A DNA stretch of 64,000 nt, taken from contig NZ_JAGQDF010000003.1 of assembly GCF_018069875.1 (NCBI RefSeq), positions 310,001-374,000 on the forward strand. The letters are read 5' to 3'. Within the stretch, counting starts at the first letter, position 1. Each line of letters opens with the position of its first letter. The position numbers were made by a program, and so were the translations under genes. This document shows positions 41,886 to 48,090 of the stretch, in pieces. A model generated the notes under the pieces. The model was not told the origin of the DNA and did no database searches. It worked only from the letters and a program-made list of their open reading frames with translations. Source of the stretch: Ideonella alba. Lineage in GTDB: Bacteria > Pseudomonadota > Gammaproteobacteria > Burkholderiales > Burkholderiaceae_C.

Positions 41886-42851
41886 ATGAGCCCGCTGTTC
41901 CTGGAGCTGCACCGGATCGATCCCGGCGCACTGGCCCGCGAGGCCGCGCTGGGCCTGCTGGCGCAGCCGGCGGCGGTGTCGCCCAAGTTCTTCTACGACG
42001 CGCTGGGCTCGCGCCTCTTCGAGGCGATCACCGCGCTCGACGAGTACTACCCCACCCGCACCGAGGCGGCGATCTTCGAGCGCCACGGCGCCGCGATCGC
42101 GGCGGCGGTGCACGCGCGCCTGGGCCCGCGGCCGGTGATCATCGAGCCCGGCGCCGGCAGCTGCCGCAAGGCCGCGTCGCTGTTCGGGGTGCTGCGGCCG
42201 CGGCGCTTTGTGGCGCTGGACATCTCGGTCGACTACCTGCGCGAGGCGCTGCGGGCGCTGCAGCCGGCCCACCCGGCGCTGGCACTGGTGGGCGTGGGCC
42301 TGGACTTCTCGGCCCGCCTGGCGCTGCCGCCCGAGGCGCTGGGGCCCGATGCCGGGCCGTCGCTGGTCTTCTACCCAGGATCGAGCATCGGCAACTTCGC
42401 GCCCGAGCAGGCGCTGCGCCTGCTGCGCGAGGCGCGTGCGCTCAGCCAGGGCGGGGCGCTGCTGATCGGTGTCGACCGCGTCAAGGCCATCCCGGTGCTG
42501 GAAGCGGCCTACGACGACGCGCTGGGCGTGACCGCGGCCTTCAACCTGAACCTGCTGCGCCACCTGAACCGGGTGCTGGACAGCAACTTCCGGCTGGACG
42601 ACTGGCGCCACGTGGCCTTCTACGACGCGGCCGCCTCGCGCATCGAGATGCACCTCGAGGCCCGCCTCGCCACCACCGTGCACTGGCCCGGCGGCGAGCG
42701 CCGCTTCGCCGCCGGCGAGCGCCTGCTGACCGAGCATTCCTACAAGTGGACGCCCGAGGCGTTCGACGCGCTGCTGCACGACGCGGGCTACCGCAGCTGC
42801 CAGCACTGGAGCGACGACGCAGGCTGGTTCTCGGTGGTGCTGGCGGCTTGA
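41886..42851 (+). CDS. egtD: L-histidine N-alpha-methyltransferase EgtD
   Basis: 321 residues. EgtD trimethylates histidine to hercynine with three AdoMet, the first step of ergothioneine (and selenoneine) synthesis. Family features: SPKFFYDALGSRLFEAITAL, DEYYPTRTEAAIF, IEPGAGSCRKAASLF (AdoMet loop), FYPGSSIGNFAPEQA, GVDRVKAIPVLEAAYDD, FNLNLLRHLNRVLDSNF and ERLLTEHSYKWT. The length matches. It follows gpx by 29 bases and ends next to the convergent CcdA gene; egtB lies 1.2 kb further on the same strand beyond two minus-strand genes. Confidence 0.95.
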   Translation: MSPLFLELHRIDPGALAREAALGLLAQPAAVSPKFFYDALGSRLFEAITALDEYYPTRTEAAIFERHGAAIAAAVHARLGPRPVIIEPGAGSCRKAASLFGVLRPRRFVALDISVDYLREALRALQPAHPALALVGVGLDFSARLALPPEALGPDAGPSLVFYPGSSIGNFAPEQALRLLREARALSQGGALLIGVDRVKAIPVLEAAYDDALGVTAAFNLNLLRHLNRVLDSNFRLDDWRHVAFYDAAASRIEMHLEARLATTVHWPGGERRFAAGERLLTEHSYKWTPEAFDALLHDAGYRSCQHWSDDAGWFSVVLAA

Positions 42852-43577
42852 TCAGAACAGCGTCGTCAGCGCCAGCCAGCCCTCGGGCAACCAGGCGTTG
42901 ACGCGGGCTTCCAGCCACTTGTCGCCGCCGGTCAGGATCAGCACGCCCATGCCGCCCAGCAGCAGTGCAAAGGCGTTCTTGACCAGGCCGATGCGCCCCA
43001 GCACCCAGCCGCGCACGCGCTGGAAGCCGGCCCGCGAGGCATAAGCCACCGCCACCAGCGGGATCGCCGCCCCCAGGCCGAAGGCACCCAGGATCAGGCC
43101 GCCGCGCGCCACACCGCCCTCGCTGGCCACCAGCGTCAGCGCCGAGGCCAGCAGCGGGCCGGAGCAGGGGCTCCAGACCAGGCCCAGCACGGCGCCCAGG
43201 CCGAAGGCGCTGGCCAGCGAGCCGCCCGACAGGCGCGATGAAGCCGCATTGGCGCCACTGGCCAGCGGCGCCATCAGCTGCGTGAAGCGCTCGTTCCAGG
43301 CGGGGATCAGCATCACCAGCGCGAAGCCGATCAGCAGCCAGGCGCCGGCCACCCGCACCACATCGCCATCCAGGCCCAGGGCCGGGCCCGCGGCGCCCAG
43401 CAGCATGCCGATGCCGGCAAAGGCGCTGGCCATGCCCAGGCCCAGCGCCACCGGCGCCAGCCGACTGGCCTGCAGCGCGCCGCCCAGCACCAAGGGCAGC
43501 AGCGGAAACACGCAGGGACTGAGCGTGGTCAGGCTGCCGGCGGCCAGGCTCAGGCCGAGTTCGGGAAACGACACCAT
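42852..43577 (-). CDS. CcdA-type thiol-disulfide membrane transporter
   Basis: 241 residues, six hydrophobic segments. Motifs LTTLSPCVFPLLPLVLG and LVWSPCSGPLLASAL carry the two conserved membrane cysteines (each before or after Pro) of CcdA/DsbD-beta proteins, which pass electrons from cytoplasmic thioredoxin to a periplasmic partner. The partner is probably the thioredoxin-like protein encoded 10 bases upstream in the same operon. Both lie between egtD and egtB on the opposite strand. It may serve cytochrome c maturation or periplasmic thiol repair; no other ccm gene is in view. Confidence 0.9.
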   Translation of the reverse strand: MVSFPELGLSLAAGSLTTLSPCVFPLLPLVLGGALQASRLAPVALGLGMASAFAGIGMLLGAAGPALGLDGDVVRVAGAWLLIGFALVMLIPAWNERFTQLMAPLASGANAASSRLSGGSLASAFGLGAVLGLVWSPCSGPLLASALTLVASEGGVARGGLILGAFGLGAAIPLVAVAYASRAGFQRVRGWVLGRIGLVKNAFALLLGGMGVLILTGGDKWLEARVNAWLPEGWLALTTLF

Positions 43578-43587
43578 TGCTGGCCGA

Positions 43588-43980
43588 TCAGAGGGCTGCC
43601 TGCAGCGCGGCGCGGATCTTGTCGGGCGCGGTCTCGCCGGCGATGCGGGCCTTCTCTGTGGTGCCGCGGTAGACGATGACGGTGGACTGGGTGCGCACCT
43701 GCAAGGCTTTGCGCAGGTCCTTCTCGTTGTCGTAGTCGACGACCAGCACGGTCAGCTTCAGCGCCGGGTCGGCCTTCAACTGGTTCAGCACCGTGGTCTG
43801 CTGGCGGCAGGTCGGGCACCAGTCGGCATGGAAGTGCAGGGCGACCGGCTGGCCGGCCTGCTGGGCGGCGGCCAGGGCCTGGGCGGTGTAGGGCAGGGTC
43901 TCCAGCGCCTGGGCCAGCGGGGCCAGGGTGGACAGGGCGGCAGCGAACAGGCTGCCCAGCAGCCAGCGGCGGTTCATCAT
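43588..43980 (-). CDS. Exported thioredoxin-fold protein
   Basis: 130 residues from the ATG at 43980, preceded by GGAG. The N-terminus MMNRRWLLGSLFAAALSTLA is a signal peptide (possibly Tat-like with RRWLLG). The active site is HADWCPTCRQQTTVLNQL, a CPTC dithiol. The cis-Pro of typical thioredoxins is not obvious: the region reads QVRTQSTVIVYRG, where Thr-Val replaces the usual Pro. It is likely reduced by the CcdA-type protein encoded just downstream. Divergent from egtB, with an inverted repeat between them. Confidence 0.87.
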   Translation of the reverse strand: MMNRRWLLGSLFAAALSTLAPLAQALETLPYTAQALAAAQQAGQPVALHFHADWCPTCRQQTTVLNQLKADPALKLTVLVVDYDNEKDLRKALQVRTQSTVIVYRGTTEKARIAGETAPDKIRAALQAAL

Positions 43981-44007
43981 GGGGGCTCCTTCGATCGGTG
44001 GACACAG

Positions 44008-44026
44008 CACCGGCCGACGGCCGGTG
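44008..44026. promoter_or_regulatory. Inverted repeat between the thioredoxin gene and egtB
   Basis: CACCGGCC (44008-44015), spacer GAC, GGCCGGTG (44019-44026): a perfect 8-bp dyad in the 101-base divergent gap. Its position fits an operator for one or both directions. It could also form a hairpin in either leader. Confidence 0.45.
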
Positions 44027-44081
44027 ATCCCCCTCTGTCGCACGAGCGGGGCGATTCCTTACAGCTGGGCGAGGCGCTTCG

Positions 44082-45431
44082 GTGATACTGGCCGCCGATC
44101 GAGCTTCCACCGGGCCGAGCGTGCCGCCGCTGTCCACCGAACCGCCATCCCCCGCCGACGCGGCCGCGCTGCTGCAGCGCCTGCGCGCCGTGCGCGCGCA
44201 GACCGAGGCGCTGGCCGCGCCGCTCAGCGAGGCCGATGCGCAGGCGCAGAGCATGCCCGACGCCAGCCCGGCCAAGTGGCACCTGGCCCACACCACCTGG
44301 TTCTTCGAGACCCTGGTGCTGGAAGCCGCCGAGCCCGGCTTCCGGCCCCACCACCCGGCCTTCCGCGTGCTGTTCAACAGCTACTACCAGGCCATCGGCC
44401 CGCAGCATGCGCGCGCCGAGCGCGGCCTGATCACCCGCCCCGGGCTGGCCGAGGTGCGGGCCTACCGCGCGGCGGTGGACGAGCGCCTGGCGCGGCTGCT
44501 GCAGCAGCAGCCCGAGCGCGTCAGCGCCGGCCTGGTCGAGCTGGGCCTGCACCACGAACAGCAGCACCAGGAGCTGCTGCTGACCGACCTGAAGCACCTG
44601 CTGTCGGCCAACCCGCTGCGCCCGGCCTACCGCGAAGCGCCGCCGCGGCCCGCGGCGGCGACCGAGCAGACGATGGGCTGGCTGGCCTGCGACGGCGGCC
44701 GGGTCGACATCGGCCACGACGGTGCCGGCTTCGGCTTCGACAACGAGGACCCGCGCCACCCGCACTGGCTGGCGCCGCATGCGCTGGCCGACCGCCTGGT
44801 CAGCGTGGCCGAGTTCGCCGACTTCATCGCCGTCGGCGGCTACCGCAGCCCGCGCTGGTGGCTGTCCGACGGCTGGGCCTGGGTGCAGCGCAGCGGTGCG
44901 GTGGCGCCGCTGTACTGGGAGGGCCCGACGCCCGGTGACGGCCTGTTCACGCTGCATGGCGTGCAGACGCCCGACCCGGCCGAACCGGTGCTGCACCTGA
45001 ACCTCTACGAGGCCGATGCCTACACCCGCTGGGCCGCCGCGCAGAGCGGCCTGCCGCTGCGCCTGCCCACCGAGCAGGAGTGGGAGCACGCCGCGCGCCG
45101 CCTGCACGCCGACCCCCAACGCCGCGCGCTGCGCGACCCCGCCACGCAATGGCTGCATGCCAGCGCGCCTGAGGCCGGCAGCGGCCTGCGCCAGGCCTTC
45201 GGCGAGGCCTGGCAATGGACCGCCAGCGCCTACGCCGCCTACCCCGGCTACCGGCCCTGGGGCGGCGCGGTGGGTGAGTACAACGGCAAGTTCATGGCCA
45301 ACCAGTCGGTGCTGCGCGGCGCCTCGTTCGCCACGCCAGGGGGCCATGGCCGCGCCAGCTACCGCAACTTCTTCCCGGCCGAGGCGCGCTGGCAGTTCAC
45401 CGGCCTGCGGCTGGCGCGCGACCTGTGCTGA
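44082..45431 (+). CDS. egtB: EgtB-family sulfoxide synthase (possible SenA-type)
   Basis: 449 residues if the GTG at 44082 is used; a GTG at 44121 is an alternative. EgtB joins hercynine to cysteine or gamma-glutamylcysteine with O2 using non-heme iron. The DinB-like half has KWHLAHTTWFFE (His67 or His70) and HEQQHQE (H158, H162, E164; HxxxHxE), the iron ligands. The FGE-like half has LPTEQEWEHAARR, QWTASAYAAYPGY, YNGKFMANQSVLRG and SYRNFFPAEARWQFTGLRLA. selD starts 23 bases downstream. Because SenA of the selenoneine pathway is an EgtB homologue found beside a SelD homologue, a selenium substrate must be considered. Confidence 0.92.
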   Translation: MILAADRASTGPSVPPLSTEPPSPADAAALLQRLRAVRAQTEALAAPLSEADAQAQSMPDASPAKWHLAHTTWFFETLVLEAAEPGFRPHHPAFRVLFNSYYQAIGPQHARAERGLITRPGLAEVRAYRAAVDERLARLLQQQPERVSAGLVELGLHHEQQHQELLLTDLKHLLSANPLRPAYREAPPRPAAATEQTMGWLACDGGRVDIGHDGAGFGFDNEDPRHPHWLAPHALADRLVSVAEFADFIAVGGYRSPRWWLSDGWAWVQRSGAVAPLYWEGPTPGDGLFTLHGVQTPDPAEPVLHLNLYEADAYTRWAAAQSGLPLRLPTEQEWEHAARRLHADPQRRALRDPATQWLHASAPEAGSGLRQAFGEAWQWTASAYAAYPGYRPWGGAVGEYNGKFMANQSVLRGASFATPGGHGRASYRNFFPAEARWQFTGLRLARDLC

Positions 45432-45454
45432 CGCCCATCCGGGACAATCGCGCG

Positions 45455-46519
45455 ATGACCGACCTGTTGCCGACCTCCCTGGACGAACCCCGCCTGACCT
45501 CGCTCTCCCACGGCGGCGGTTGCGGCTGCAAGATCGCCCCGGGCGTGCTGTCCGAGATCCTGCGCGGCACCGCCGCGATGCCGCTGCCGCCGGAGTTGCT
45601 GGTGGGCATCGAGACCTCGGACGACGCGGCGGTCTACCGCCTCAACGACGAGCAGGCGCTGATTGCCACCACCGATTTCTTCATGCCCATCGTCGACGAC
45701 CCGTTCGACTTCGGCCGCATCGCCGCCACCAACGCGATCAGCGATGTCTACGCCATGGGCGGCCGGCCGATCCTGGCGCTGGCGCTGGTGGGCATGCCGA
45801 TCGGCCGGCTCAGCACCGCCACCATCGGCCGCATCCTGGAGGGCGGCGCCAGCGTCTGCCGTGCCGCGGGCATTCCGGTGGCCGGCGGCCACACGATCGA
45901 CTCGGTCGAGGCCATCTACGGCCTGGTGGCGCTGGGCCTGGTGCACCCGGCGCGCGTCAAGCGCAACGCCGACGCGCGCGAGGGTGACCTGCTGGTGCTG
46001 GGCAAGCCGCTGGGCGTGGGCGTGATGAGCGCGGCGCTGAAGAAGGGCGCGCTCGACGCCGAGGGCTACGCCCGCATGATCGCCAGCACCACCGCGCTGA
46101 ACACCCCGGGCCCCGACCTGGCGCAGATCGACGGCGTGCACGCGATCACCGACGTCACCGGCTTCGGCCTGGCCGGCCATGGACTGGAGATGGCGCGCGG
46201 CGCCGGCCTGCAGGCGCAGATCGACTGGCGTGCGGTGCCGCTGCTCCCGGGCGTGCGCGCACTGGCCGAGCAGGGCTTCGTCACCGGGGCCTCCGGTCGC
46301 AACTGGGCCGGCTACGGCGCCGAGGTGAGCCTGCCCGCCGGTTTCGCCGACGTGGACCGTGCGCTGCTGACCGACCCGCAGACCAGCGGCGGCCTGCTGG
46401 TGGCCTGCGCCCCGCAGGCGCTGGACGCGGTGCAGGCGGTGTTCGCCCGCCACGGCTTTGCGCAGGCCGCGGTGGTGGGCCGGATGGCGGCCGGGCAGGG
46501 CCTGGCGCTCAGCGCCTGA
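45455..46519 (+). CDS. selD: Selenide, water dikinase (SelD; SenC-like by context)
   Basis: 354 residues. SelD makes selenophosphate from selenide and ATP. SHGGGCGCKIAP holds Cys23 and Lys26, equivalent to catalytic Cys17 and Lys20 of E. coli SelD, so the enzyme uses Cys, not Sec. Other signatures: DDAAVYRLND, TTDFFMPIVDDPFDFGRIAA, NAISDVYAMGG, GGHTIDSVEAIYG, ITDVTGFGLAGHGLEMA and LTDPQTSGGLL. It probably shares a transcript with egtB. No selU/mnmH, selA or selB is nearby. The 3' end overlaps the convergent esterase gene by 11 bases. Confidence 0.95.
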   Translation: MTDLLPTSLDEPRLTSLSHGGGCGCKIAPGVLSEILRGTAAMPLPPELLVGIETSDDAAVYRLNDEQALIATTDFFMPIVDDPFDFGRIAATNAISDVYAMGGRPILALALVGMPIGRLSTATIGRILEGGASVCRAAGIPVAGGHTIDSVEAIYGLVALGLVHPARVKRNADAREGDLLVLGKPLGVGVMSAALKKGALDAEGYARMIASTTALNTPGPDLAQIDGVHAITDVTGFGLAGHGLEMARGAGLQAQIDWRAVPLLPGVRALAEQGFVTGASGRNWAGYGAEVSLPAGFADVDRALLTDPQTSGGLLVACAPQALDAVQAVFARHGFAQAAVVGRMAAGQGLALSA

Positions 46520-47432
46520 ACAGGAAGCTCAGCGGGATGTGCACCCGCTCGGCCCAGGCGGTTTCGTTGTGGCCGGTGCCGGGGAAGACGCGGCTCAGGT
46601 AGTGGGCATCGGTGTAGCCGCGCGCGCGCACCAGCGCATCCACCGGCGGCTGGTAGGGCGGGTACAGCGCGTCCAGCTCGGTCGTGCCGTGGTCCTGGTA
46701 CAGCCGGTGCGTGGCCGGGTCGGGCAGGTGCTCGCGCAGGTAGGCGCGGCCCGCAGCGGGAAGGTCCTCGTTGGGCTGGAAGATGCCGATCCAGTGGGTG
46801 GACAGGCCTGCCGCTGCGCCGAAGACCTGCGGGTACTCGCACAGCGCGTAGACCGAGATCAGCCCGCCCATGCTGGAGCCCATCACCGCGGTGTGGGCGG
46901 GGCCGGTATGGGTGGCGTAGCGCGTGTCGATCAGCGGCTTGAGCTCCTCAACCAGGAAGCGCAGGTAGGCGTCGGACTGCGGCTGGCCGTGCAGTGCCTC
47001 GGCGACCAGGCGGGTGCGGACGTCCTCAGGCAGGTGCGGCAGGAACTTCTGCGGCAGGTACTCGCTGTGGCGCCAGCGGCCGTTGTTCCACACCGCCACC
47101 AGGATCACCGGCGGCATCTGGCCCTCGGCCACCAGACGGGTGACGGCGCGGTCGATCGCCCAGGCCTGGTGGTTCCAGGTGGTGGCGGCGTCGAACTGCA
47201 TCTGGCCGTCGTGCAGGTAGAGCACCGCGAAGCGCTCACCGCGGGCGACACGGGCGTCGTAGTCGTCGGGCAGCCAGACGTCGACCGGGCGCGCATCCAC
47301 GTGGCGCGAGGCAATGGTGGGCAGGCGCTCCAGCCGGCCGTGGCTGGGGCGGGGCAGGGCGGGTGCAGGGACAGGCTGGGCCAGGGCGGGCAGGCTCATC
47401 GCGAGCAGGCTGGTGAGGAAGTGGCGGCGCAT
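46509..47432 (-). CDS. Exported alpha/beta-hydrolase (esterase D / IroE-like)
   Basis: 307 residues from the ATG at 47432. Signal peptide (MRRHFLTSLLAMSLPALAQP), then FAVLYLHDGQMQF (oxyanion region), VMGSSMGGLISVYALCEYPQ (nucleophile Ser in GSSMGG) and FPGTGHNETAWAERV (catalytic His). The putative-esterase (PF00756-type) fold covers IroE, feruloyl esterases and related enzymes acting on esters in the periplasm; the substrate is unknown. It follows the Crp/Fnr gene by 7 bases in the same direction and overlaps selD tail to tail. Confidence 0.87.
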   Translation of the reverse strand: MRRHFLTSLLAMSLPALAQPVPAPALPRPSHGRLERLPTIASRHVDARPVDVWLPDDYDARVARGERFAVLYLHDGQMQFDAATTWNHQAWAIDRAVTRLVAEGQMPPVILVAVWNNGRWRHSEYLPQKFLPHLPEDVRTRLVAEALHGQPQSDAYLRFLVEELKPLIDTRYATHTGPAHTAVMGSSMGGLISVYALCEYPQVFGAAAGLSTHWIGIFQPNEDLPAAGRAYLREHLPDPATHRLYQDHGTTELDALYPPYQPPVDALVRARGYTDAHYLSRVFPGTGHNETAWAERVHIPLSFLFRR

Positions 47433-47439
47433 GGGGCGG

Positions 47440-48090
47440 TCAGTCGGGCAGCAGCCAGAGCGTGCCATAGCGGCGCTGAACGCGGCCCTGGGATTCCAAC
47501 TGAGACAGCAGGGTGTTGACGCGCTGGCGCGAAAGCCCGGCCAGCTCGGCCAGCGCCTGCTGGGTGGTGCGCAGCGGCACCGCGCCGTGCCCGTCGGGGG
47601 CGGGCGCCTGCTCGCGGCGCAGCTGGGCCAGGGCCAGCGTCAGCCGCTCCATGCCGCCCTGCAGCCGGGCGGCGGCGAGCTGCTGCACCGTGCCGTCATG
47701 GCGCCGCGCGAATTCGCGCAGGAGTGCGCGGCCGAAGCCGGGCACGCCGTCCATCAGCAGCGTGTAGGCGGCGGCGTCGATGCACAGCAGCCGCGTGGCT
47801 GCGGCGGCCACCGCCTCGTAGCTGGACGGCGCGCCGGTGGCCAGGCTGGTCAGGCCGAAGAGCTGGCCGGCCCCGACATGCTCGATCACCGACACCCCGC
47901 CATCCGCCGCCAGCAGGCGGATCTCCAGCGCCCCCGACAGCACGCCGTACAGCGGGTGGCCGCTGGCGCCCTGCGGCACGATCACCGCGCCGCGCGCCAC
48001 CCGGCGGCTGCGCAGCAGCGGCGCCAGCGCGGCCGGCCAGCGCAGGCCGGGGAAGTGGCTGTCCAGGAAGCGGCGGGCGTCGTCGTCCAT
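47440..48090 (-). CDS. Crp/Fnr family transcriptional regulator
   Basis: 216 residues. N-terminal cyclic-nucleotide-binding-like beta roll (RRVARGAVIVPQGASGHPLY, SVIEHVGAGQLFGLTSLATG), dimer helix (GMERLTLALAQLR) and C-terminal winged helix (TTQQALAELAGLSRQRVNTL, LSQLESQGRVQRRYGTLWLL). No N-terminal Fe-S cysteines, so it is not a canonical Fnr; the effector is unknown. A perfect 20-bp palindrome begins 9 bases upstream of its ATG and is the likely autoregulatory operator, shared with the divergent DUF2332 gene. The esterase gene follows at 7 bases. Confidence 0.92.
   Translation of the reverse strand: MDDDARRFLDSHFPGLRWPAALAPLLRSRRVARGAVIVPQGASGHPLYGVLSGALEIRLLAADGGVSVIEHVGAGQLFGLTSLATGAPSSYEAVAAAATRLLCIDAAAYTLLMDGVPGFGRALLREFARRHDGTVQQLAAARLQGGMERLTLALAQLRREQAPAPDGHGAVPLRTTQQALAELAGLSRQRVNTLLSQLESQGRVQRRYGTLWLLPD

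Follow-up and report, generated by a model that had tools for sequence, protein, structure and literature searches.

We describe here a locus of Ideonella alba in which the gene for EgtB, the sulfoxide synthase of ergothioneine synthesis, is directly followed by selD, and in which EgtB takes the position that SenA and SenB hold in a selenoneine cluster of the same bacterial family. With a probability of about 0.72, this is an ergothioneine and selenophosphate locus that was derived from a selenoneine cluster in which egtB replaced senAB and selD was retained for MnmH. As judged from its gene content, the strain probably makes sulfur-based ergothioneine rather than selenoneine. The window referred to below is the whole stretch of DNA that was analysed, 64,000 nucleotides in length.

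The locus begins with the gene for EgtD (41886..42851, + strand; TIGR03438 351 bits, cut-off 290.9; PF10017), the histidine N-alpha-methyltransferase that makes hercynine. Two genes on the opposite strand fill the space from EgtD to EgtB, one for a DsbD-type membrane protein of a thiol/disulfide electron transfer family (42852..43577, - strand; PF02683 66.5 bits) and one for its partner, an exported thioredoxin-like protein (43588..43980, - strand; PF00085 41.6 bits), for which we assume the ATG at 43980 in an open reading frame that extends to 44043. A divergent intergenic stretch (43981..44081) separates the thioredoxin (Trx) and EgtB genes, and the orientation of these genes suggests a promoter there. 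EgtB is an iron-dependent sulfoxide synthase of 449 amino acids (44082..45431, + strand; TIGR03440 525.9 bits, cut-off 360) that matches its profile in full length (positions 2-413 of 413). After a gap of 23 bases (45432-45454) follows the selenophosphate synthetase SelD (45455..46519, + strand; TIGR00476 425.9 bits, cut-off 125), with its ATG at 45455 in an open reading frame of 45425-46519 and the N-terminal motif GGGCGCK. Open reading frames and HMMs thus confirm the arrangement given in a preliminary description of this DNA, with EgtB and SelD 23 bases apart and EgtD 1.2 kb upstream of EgtB. A putative esterase (46509-47468, - strand; PF00756) lies between SelD and a CRP-like gene. The esterase has no match in G259, a genome of the same genus, where the CRP-like gene comes after SelD.

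G259 carries the identical EgtB-SelD pairing, with 94% (EgtB) and 98% (SelD) identity to the window. Between the two genomes dN/dS is 0.21 for EgtB, 0.08 for SelD, 0.33 for EgtD and 0.08 for DsbD. EgtB and SelD are under purifying selection, and EgtD and DsbD are likewise maintained by selection. Since the same EgtB-SelD pair is found in a second genome, it is not an accident of assembly. In G259 about 4.8 kb of extra DNA with a frame of 1099 amino acids (L184:11924-16667) separate EgtD from the DsbD-type gene; these two genes abut in the window.

The protein upstream of SelD is assigned by its sequence to EgtB and not to SenA. On the SenA model NF041186 it reaches 332 bits, below the cut-off of 420, and two control SenAs score 552.7 and 485.8 bits. 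The C-terminal signature TIGR04373 gives 29.5 bits (cut-off 71) compared to 93 and 83.2 for the control SenAs, and the nearest solved structures are EgtB with 428 bits and SenA with 83.6 bits. The motifs WHLAH, HEQQHQE and FNSYY are all present in an alignment with five other EgtBs, and FNSYY is missing from the SenA rows shown in that alignment. We take HX3HXE together with an upstream histidine to be the iron binding site and FNSYY to be a motif of the EgtB type found in the window. The preliminary description had proposed a placement among EgtB and SenA proteins; a quick tree of both families (77 rows) places the window protein on the EgtB side, where 31 rows (29 EgtB, the window and G259) stand together on a starred branch with support of 100. 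On HMM scores, structure search and joint tree together we rejected a SenA. An AU test in which window and G259 were shifted to the SenA side was not significant (p 0.42), a badly posed comparison as the shift only reaches a long inner branch. The window EgtB may branch deepest on the EgtB side.

The use of SelD can be read from the gene content of the genome (assembly of 5.5 Mb in 36 contigs, 99.8% complete). SelD is the single protein above the cut-off, with two other matches at 67.7 and 45.3 bits vs 125. MnmH is encoded on another contig (G000:C34, 343 bits, 366 amino acids, no internal stop). This intact gene gives SelD a use, and the presence of selD is explained by MnmH and 2-selenouridine in tRNA. 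SelA, the criterion for a selenocysteine trait, had no match at E<=0.001 in the whole genome, and a SelD serving selenocysteine is hence rejected. The preliminary description had seen no gene that explains selD; MnmH on the other contig lay outside its view. The reported absence of SenB from the window is borne out and extends to the whole genome, in which the best match has 38.3 bits vs a cut-off of 300; matches as weak as this occur in 14 of 14 control genomes. A SenB hidden elsewhere in the genome was also considered, and three weak generic glycosyltransferase matches were all that was recovered.

A selenoneine ancestry of the locus is suggested by gene order. The comparison covers a sample of 299 genomes of the family, in which a row denotes the single best tblastn stretch; rows below 70% length were dropped, except for Trx, where no length filter was applied. 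G248, from another genus, has SelD- SenB- SenA+ Trx+ DsbD+ EgtD- within 5.6 kb. Reversed, this reads EgtD+ DsbD- Trx- SenA- SenB+ SelD+, and the window reads EgtD+ DsbD- Trx- EgtB+ SelD+, so that EgtB of the window stands where SenA-SenB stand in G248. The identity of the G248 proteins to those of the window is 86% for SelD, 82% for DsbD, 65% for Trx and 65% for EgtD. Among the matches listed, G248 has SenB and no EgtB at E<=1e-110, and EgtB without SenB is found in the window genome and in G259. The DsbD-type gene is uncommon (a match at E<=1e-30 in 35/299 genomes). In 27 of 30 distinct rows no probed gene lies in its flank (mostly 1.5 kb), and among these 30 rows it adjoins SelD, EgtD, SenA or EgtB only in the window, G259 and G248. 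Trx is its neighbor in 29/29 distinct rows. G248 is the sole genome, among those examined, with the DsbD-Trx pair inside a sen cluster; in G098, SenA is some 6 kb away from a divergent pair with 42 and 44% identity. Between the window genes we detected no remains of senA or senB, and the exchange therefore rests on synteny and on trees.

In a quick EgtD tree of 110 rows, window and G259 fall within a set of 23 rows (97, starred) and there within a subset of 10 (99, starred). A careful tree of 53 rows, hand-picked from the 110 and in agreement with the quick tree, recovers the same sets with 98/98 and 98/94. Apart from window and G259, the larger set has 21 rows, 18 of them with SenA or SenB as neighbor and three from EgtB-EgtD-SelD loci (L049, G118 and G017). 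EgtD type and gene context are matched imperfectly, because five EGT-type EgtD rows (L048, L051, L058, L068, L096) come from stretches that contain SenA or SenB. Placing the window EgtD outside the selenoneine-type set lowered the log-likelihood by 24.5 (AU test, p 0.142) and, in a second test of the same question with the 53-row tree, by 24.8 (p 0.095), neither being significant. Also, the window EgtD is not specifically paired with that of G248 in the 53-row tree. The EgtB tree of 118 rows joins window and G259 to one MAG (L059; SH-aLRT 88), outside a clade of 62 rows (98, starred). Every one of the 10 EgtBs located near sen genes belongs to this clade, and so do all five further EgtB rows with SelD. 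The different tree positions of EgtB and EgtD point to separate histories. DsbD of the window groups with those of G259, G248 and G140 (81/92), and Trx groups with G140 (90/80) and not with G248. The Trx tree, which does not favor G248, and the non-significant AU tests of EgtD (p 0.095 and 0.142) speak against an exchange. The SelD tree is poorly resolved; the window SelD has around it SelDs of related genomes, some from selenoneine clusters and others standing alone, and the only starred branch near it joins window and G259. One very long branch in this tree is L205, a SelD-like protein 34% identical to that of the window. Such very divergent SelD-like proteins occur near some SenB genes (L205:5251-6243, L046, L340).

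In the reading that we prefer, EgtD would methylate histidine to hercynine, EgtB would link hercynine to a cysteine-type donor as sulfoxide, and a lyase encoded elsewhere would cleave this product. SelD, directly downstream of EgtB, is probably co-transcribed with it and would supply selenophosphate to MnmH for 2-selenouridine in tRNA. An ancestral cluster EgtD-DsbD-Trx-SenA-SenB-SelD would have lost senA and senB, and a foreign-looking egtB would have taken their place. The retention of egtD is presumably due to the use of hercynine for both products, and that of selD to the continued need of MnmH for selenophosphate. The reverse order, with EgtB first and SenAB later, appears less likely in view of the selenoneine-cluster type of EgtD and of G309 and G310, from the same genus, which retain SelD-SenB-SenA-EgtD. 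The selenoneine connection suspected in the preliminary description is thus probably right in a historical sense, given the EgtD tree and the gene order in common with G248.

A similar end state is found elsewhere in the family, with EgtB-EgtD-SelD and no senAB at three other loci. In Hydrogenophaga sp. 2FB (L049) the order is EgtB+ EgtD+ SelD+, and the absence of SenB refers to the L049 stretch. G208 (L212) has a combined cluster, SelD- SenB- SenA+ EgtD- EgtB-, which without senAB gives the L049 arrangement, and the two loci pair in the trees of EgtB (99, starred), EgtD (97/88, starred) and SelD (82). The other two loci, in G118 and G017, read EgtB- EgtD+ SelD+ with an EgtD of the selenoneine type, in genomes that have no SenB among the matches listed; as they pair in the EgtD tree (99/89), they may go back to one event. 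Flanks of 7.9 kb or more on each side are available for 55 of 80 named EgtB loci, and SelD is present in nine of the 55. Five of these nine also hold SenB, and L045, L049, L064 and L080 do not, a status that is limited for L045 by a stretch that stops just after SelD.

Across the family, SelD at E<=1e-90 is found in at least 236/299 genomes, one each save for G067 and G195 with two, among the matches listed. Since SelD is single nearly throughout, the SenC of a sen cluster is usually the one SelD that its genome has. MnmH is present in at least 264, SenB in at least 110 and EgtB (E<=1e-110) in at least 163 of the 299 genomes. SelD changes its company and occurs with SenB-SenA, with MnmH, alone, or with EgtB. 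Among the matches listed, G006 and G207 have no SelD at E<=1e-90, and G181, from the same genus as the window genome, has neither SelD at this threshold nor MnmH.

SenA-like proteins are also found apart from SenB. Iron ligands are kept in 42/42 SenA rows with SenB within 3 kb (63 rows in total) and lost in 11/21 rows without SenB nearby (Fisher p 5.7e-7, for rows that are not independent). Ten unlinked rows keep the ligands. Six of these come from genomes with SenB elsewhere (G002, G014, G040, G115, G145, G284), which are true split selenoneine systems; for L229/G094 and L231/G098 the genome has SenB nearby or another SenA, and G129 and G204 have no SenB among the matches listed. SenA-like genes directly beside selD (L331-L337) occur in G129, G132, G066, G103, G204, G109 and G053, again with no SenB among the matches listed and with the ligands lost in 5/7 genomes; their products are possibly SenA-derived, non-iron partners of selD. 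The window genome itself encodes a SenA-like protein of 405 amino acids on contig C32 (L167:1267-2484, - strand), 42% identical to SenA over about 400 amino acids, with 264 bits on the SenA model (cut-off 420) and SenA as nearest solved structure (204 bits). Its HX3HXE iron motif reads HEDHERA, and relatives are present in G303 and G308. A dN/dS of 0.26 against the G308 relative indicates that it is not a plain pseudogene. Immediately upstream of the gene is a GntR-type regulator, and downstream of it a pilin-like gene. The same genome holds, at C11:583143-672234, eleven FGE-sulfatase matches in about 90 kb on both strands, with frames of 871-1760 amino acids. Three of these proteins were checked; two have a NACHT match, one just under the Pfam cut-off, and none has a PADLOC match. 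On these domain matches the region is classed as an array of NACHT/FGE-type proteins.

The preliminary description had left the choice between a split or variant selenoneine system and plain ergothioneine synthesis beside a housekeeping selD. The plain alternative is the better of the two, given the identity of EgtB, the lack of SenB and SelA, the one SelD and the intact MnmH. A split or variant system is not supported, with EgtB identified by HMMs, structures and tree, no SenB found and MnmH present; the EgtB grouping, the mnmH gene and the absence of SenB are the very observations that had been named in advance as arguing against it. Such plain synthesis could also be pure coincidence, an ergothioneine operon that lies upstream of a housekeeping selD and has no selenoneine ancestry. 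We regard this as possible, yet doubtful. The function fits, as EgtB, EgtD and MnmH are all present, and many relatives have SelD either by itself or next to MnmH, which indicates that it moves between contexts. The lack of significance in the EgtD AU tests also favors coincidence. It would leave unexplained, however, that a five-gene order is common to G248 with SenA-SenB exactly at the EgtB position, that EgtD belongs to the selenoneine-cluster type (98/98), and that EgtB-EgtD-SelD clusters recur with the same EgtD type.

A production of selenoneine independent of SenB, with an EgtB that uses selenium from SelD either directly or via selenocysteine, is very improbable. The tight EgtB-SelD pairing is kept in two species, and the review PMC10903977 reports a breakdown of hercynyl selenoxide to selenoneine that needs no lyase and cites work on sulfoxide synthases with selenocysteine as substrate or inhibitor. 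On the other side, sequence and motifs of EgtB are ordinary, SelD is already explained by MnmH, and no enzyme was found that would convert selenophosphate to a small organic selenium donor, SenB and SelA being absent. We give as little credence to the related idea that EgtB and SelD of hybrid clusters act together, with a selenium donor formed without SenB, and yield selenoneine or both products. Least credible of all is a split selenoneine system in which EgtB would be an unusual SenA and SenB would be encoded unrecognized elsewhere. The six family genomes with SenA and SenB apart show that real cases exist, and the protein on C32 is a second, SenA-like candidate in the window genome, but that protein has lost its iron ligands, EgtB stays below the SenA cut-off and at 29.5 vs 71 on TIGR04373, and the best SenB match has 38 bits vs 300 in an assembly that is 99.8% complete.

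The selenoneine cluster senABC was described for Variovorax paradoxus (PMC9814287; also PMC10702425 and PMC10891094), and it was the mining of selD neighbors for new selenium metabolism that led to it (PMC9814287). In the literature searched, which was mostly open-access and included PMC9814287 and the accessible parts of PMC10891094, PMC10702425, PMC10903977 and PMC13188914, we found no description of EgtB beside SelD without SenB or of an exchange between sen and egt genes. If senAB was indeed exchanged for egtB, then the genes for hercynine (egtD) and selenophosphate (selD) synthesis hold their place, and it is the bond-forming module that switches between senAB and egtB. Mining of selD neighbors could then run into a trap, as an ordinary sulfur enzyme may come to lie beside selD through the inherited slot of a lost selenium module. 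Close pairs such as G248 and the window, or G208 and Hydrogenophaga sp. 2FB, would allow to ask why selenoneine was given up for ergothioneine.

Compared to known systems, the window EgtB shares the iron-ligand and FNSYY motifs with its solved relatives (8qf6/6qki/6o6l), as well as an EgtD in the same locus; unlike those EgtBs, it stands directly upstream of selD and on a branch that it shares only with G259 and one MAG. In line with the SelD-MnmH trait, the window genome has one SelD, one MnmH and no SelA, with the two genes unlinked, whereas they are neighbors in 14 SelD rows of the set. Combined ergothioneine-selenoneine clusters (L043 of Hydrogenophaga flava, L212/G208) likewise have EgtB, EgtD and SelD only a few kb apart, but they keep SenA and SenB, both of which the window lacks. 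With the selenoneine cluster senABC the locus has in common SelD (SenC, 425.9 bits), EgtD and, in the case of G248, also the DsbD-Trx pair, all arranged alike. In contrast to that cluster, it has neither SenA nor SenB, and EgtB stands in their place.
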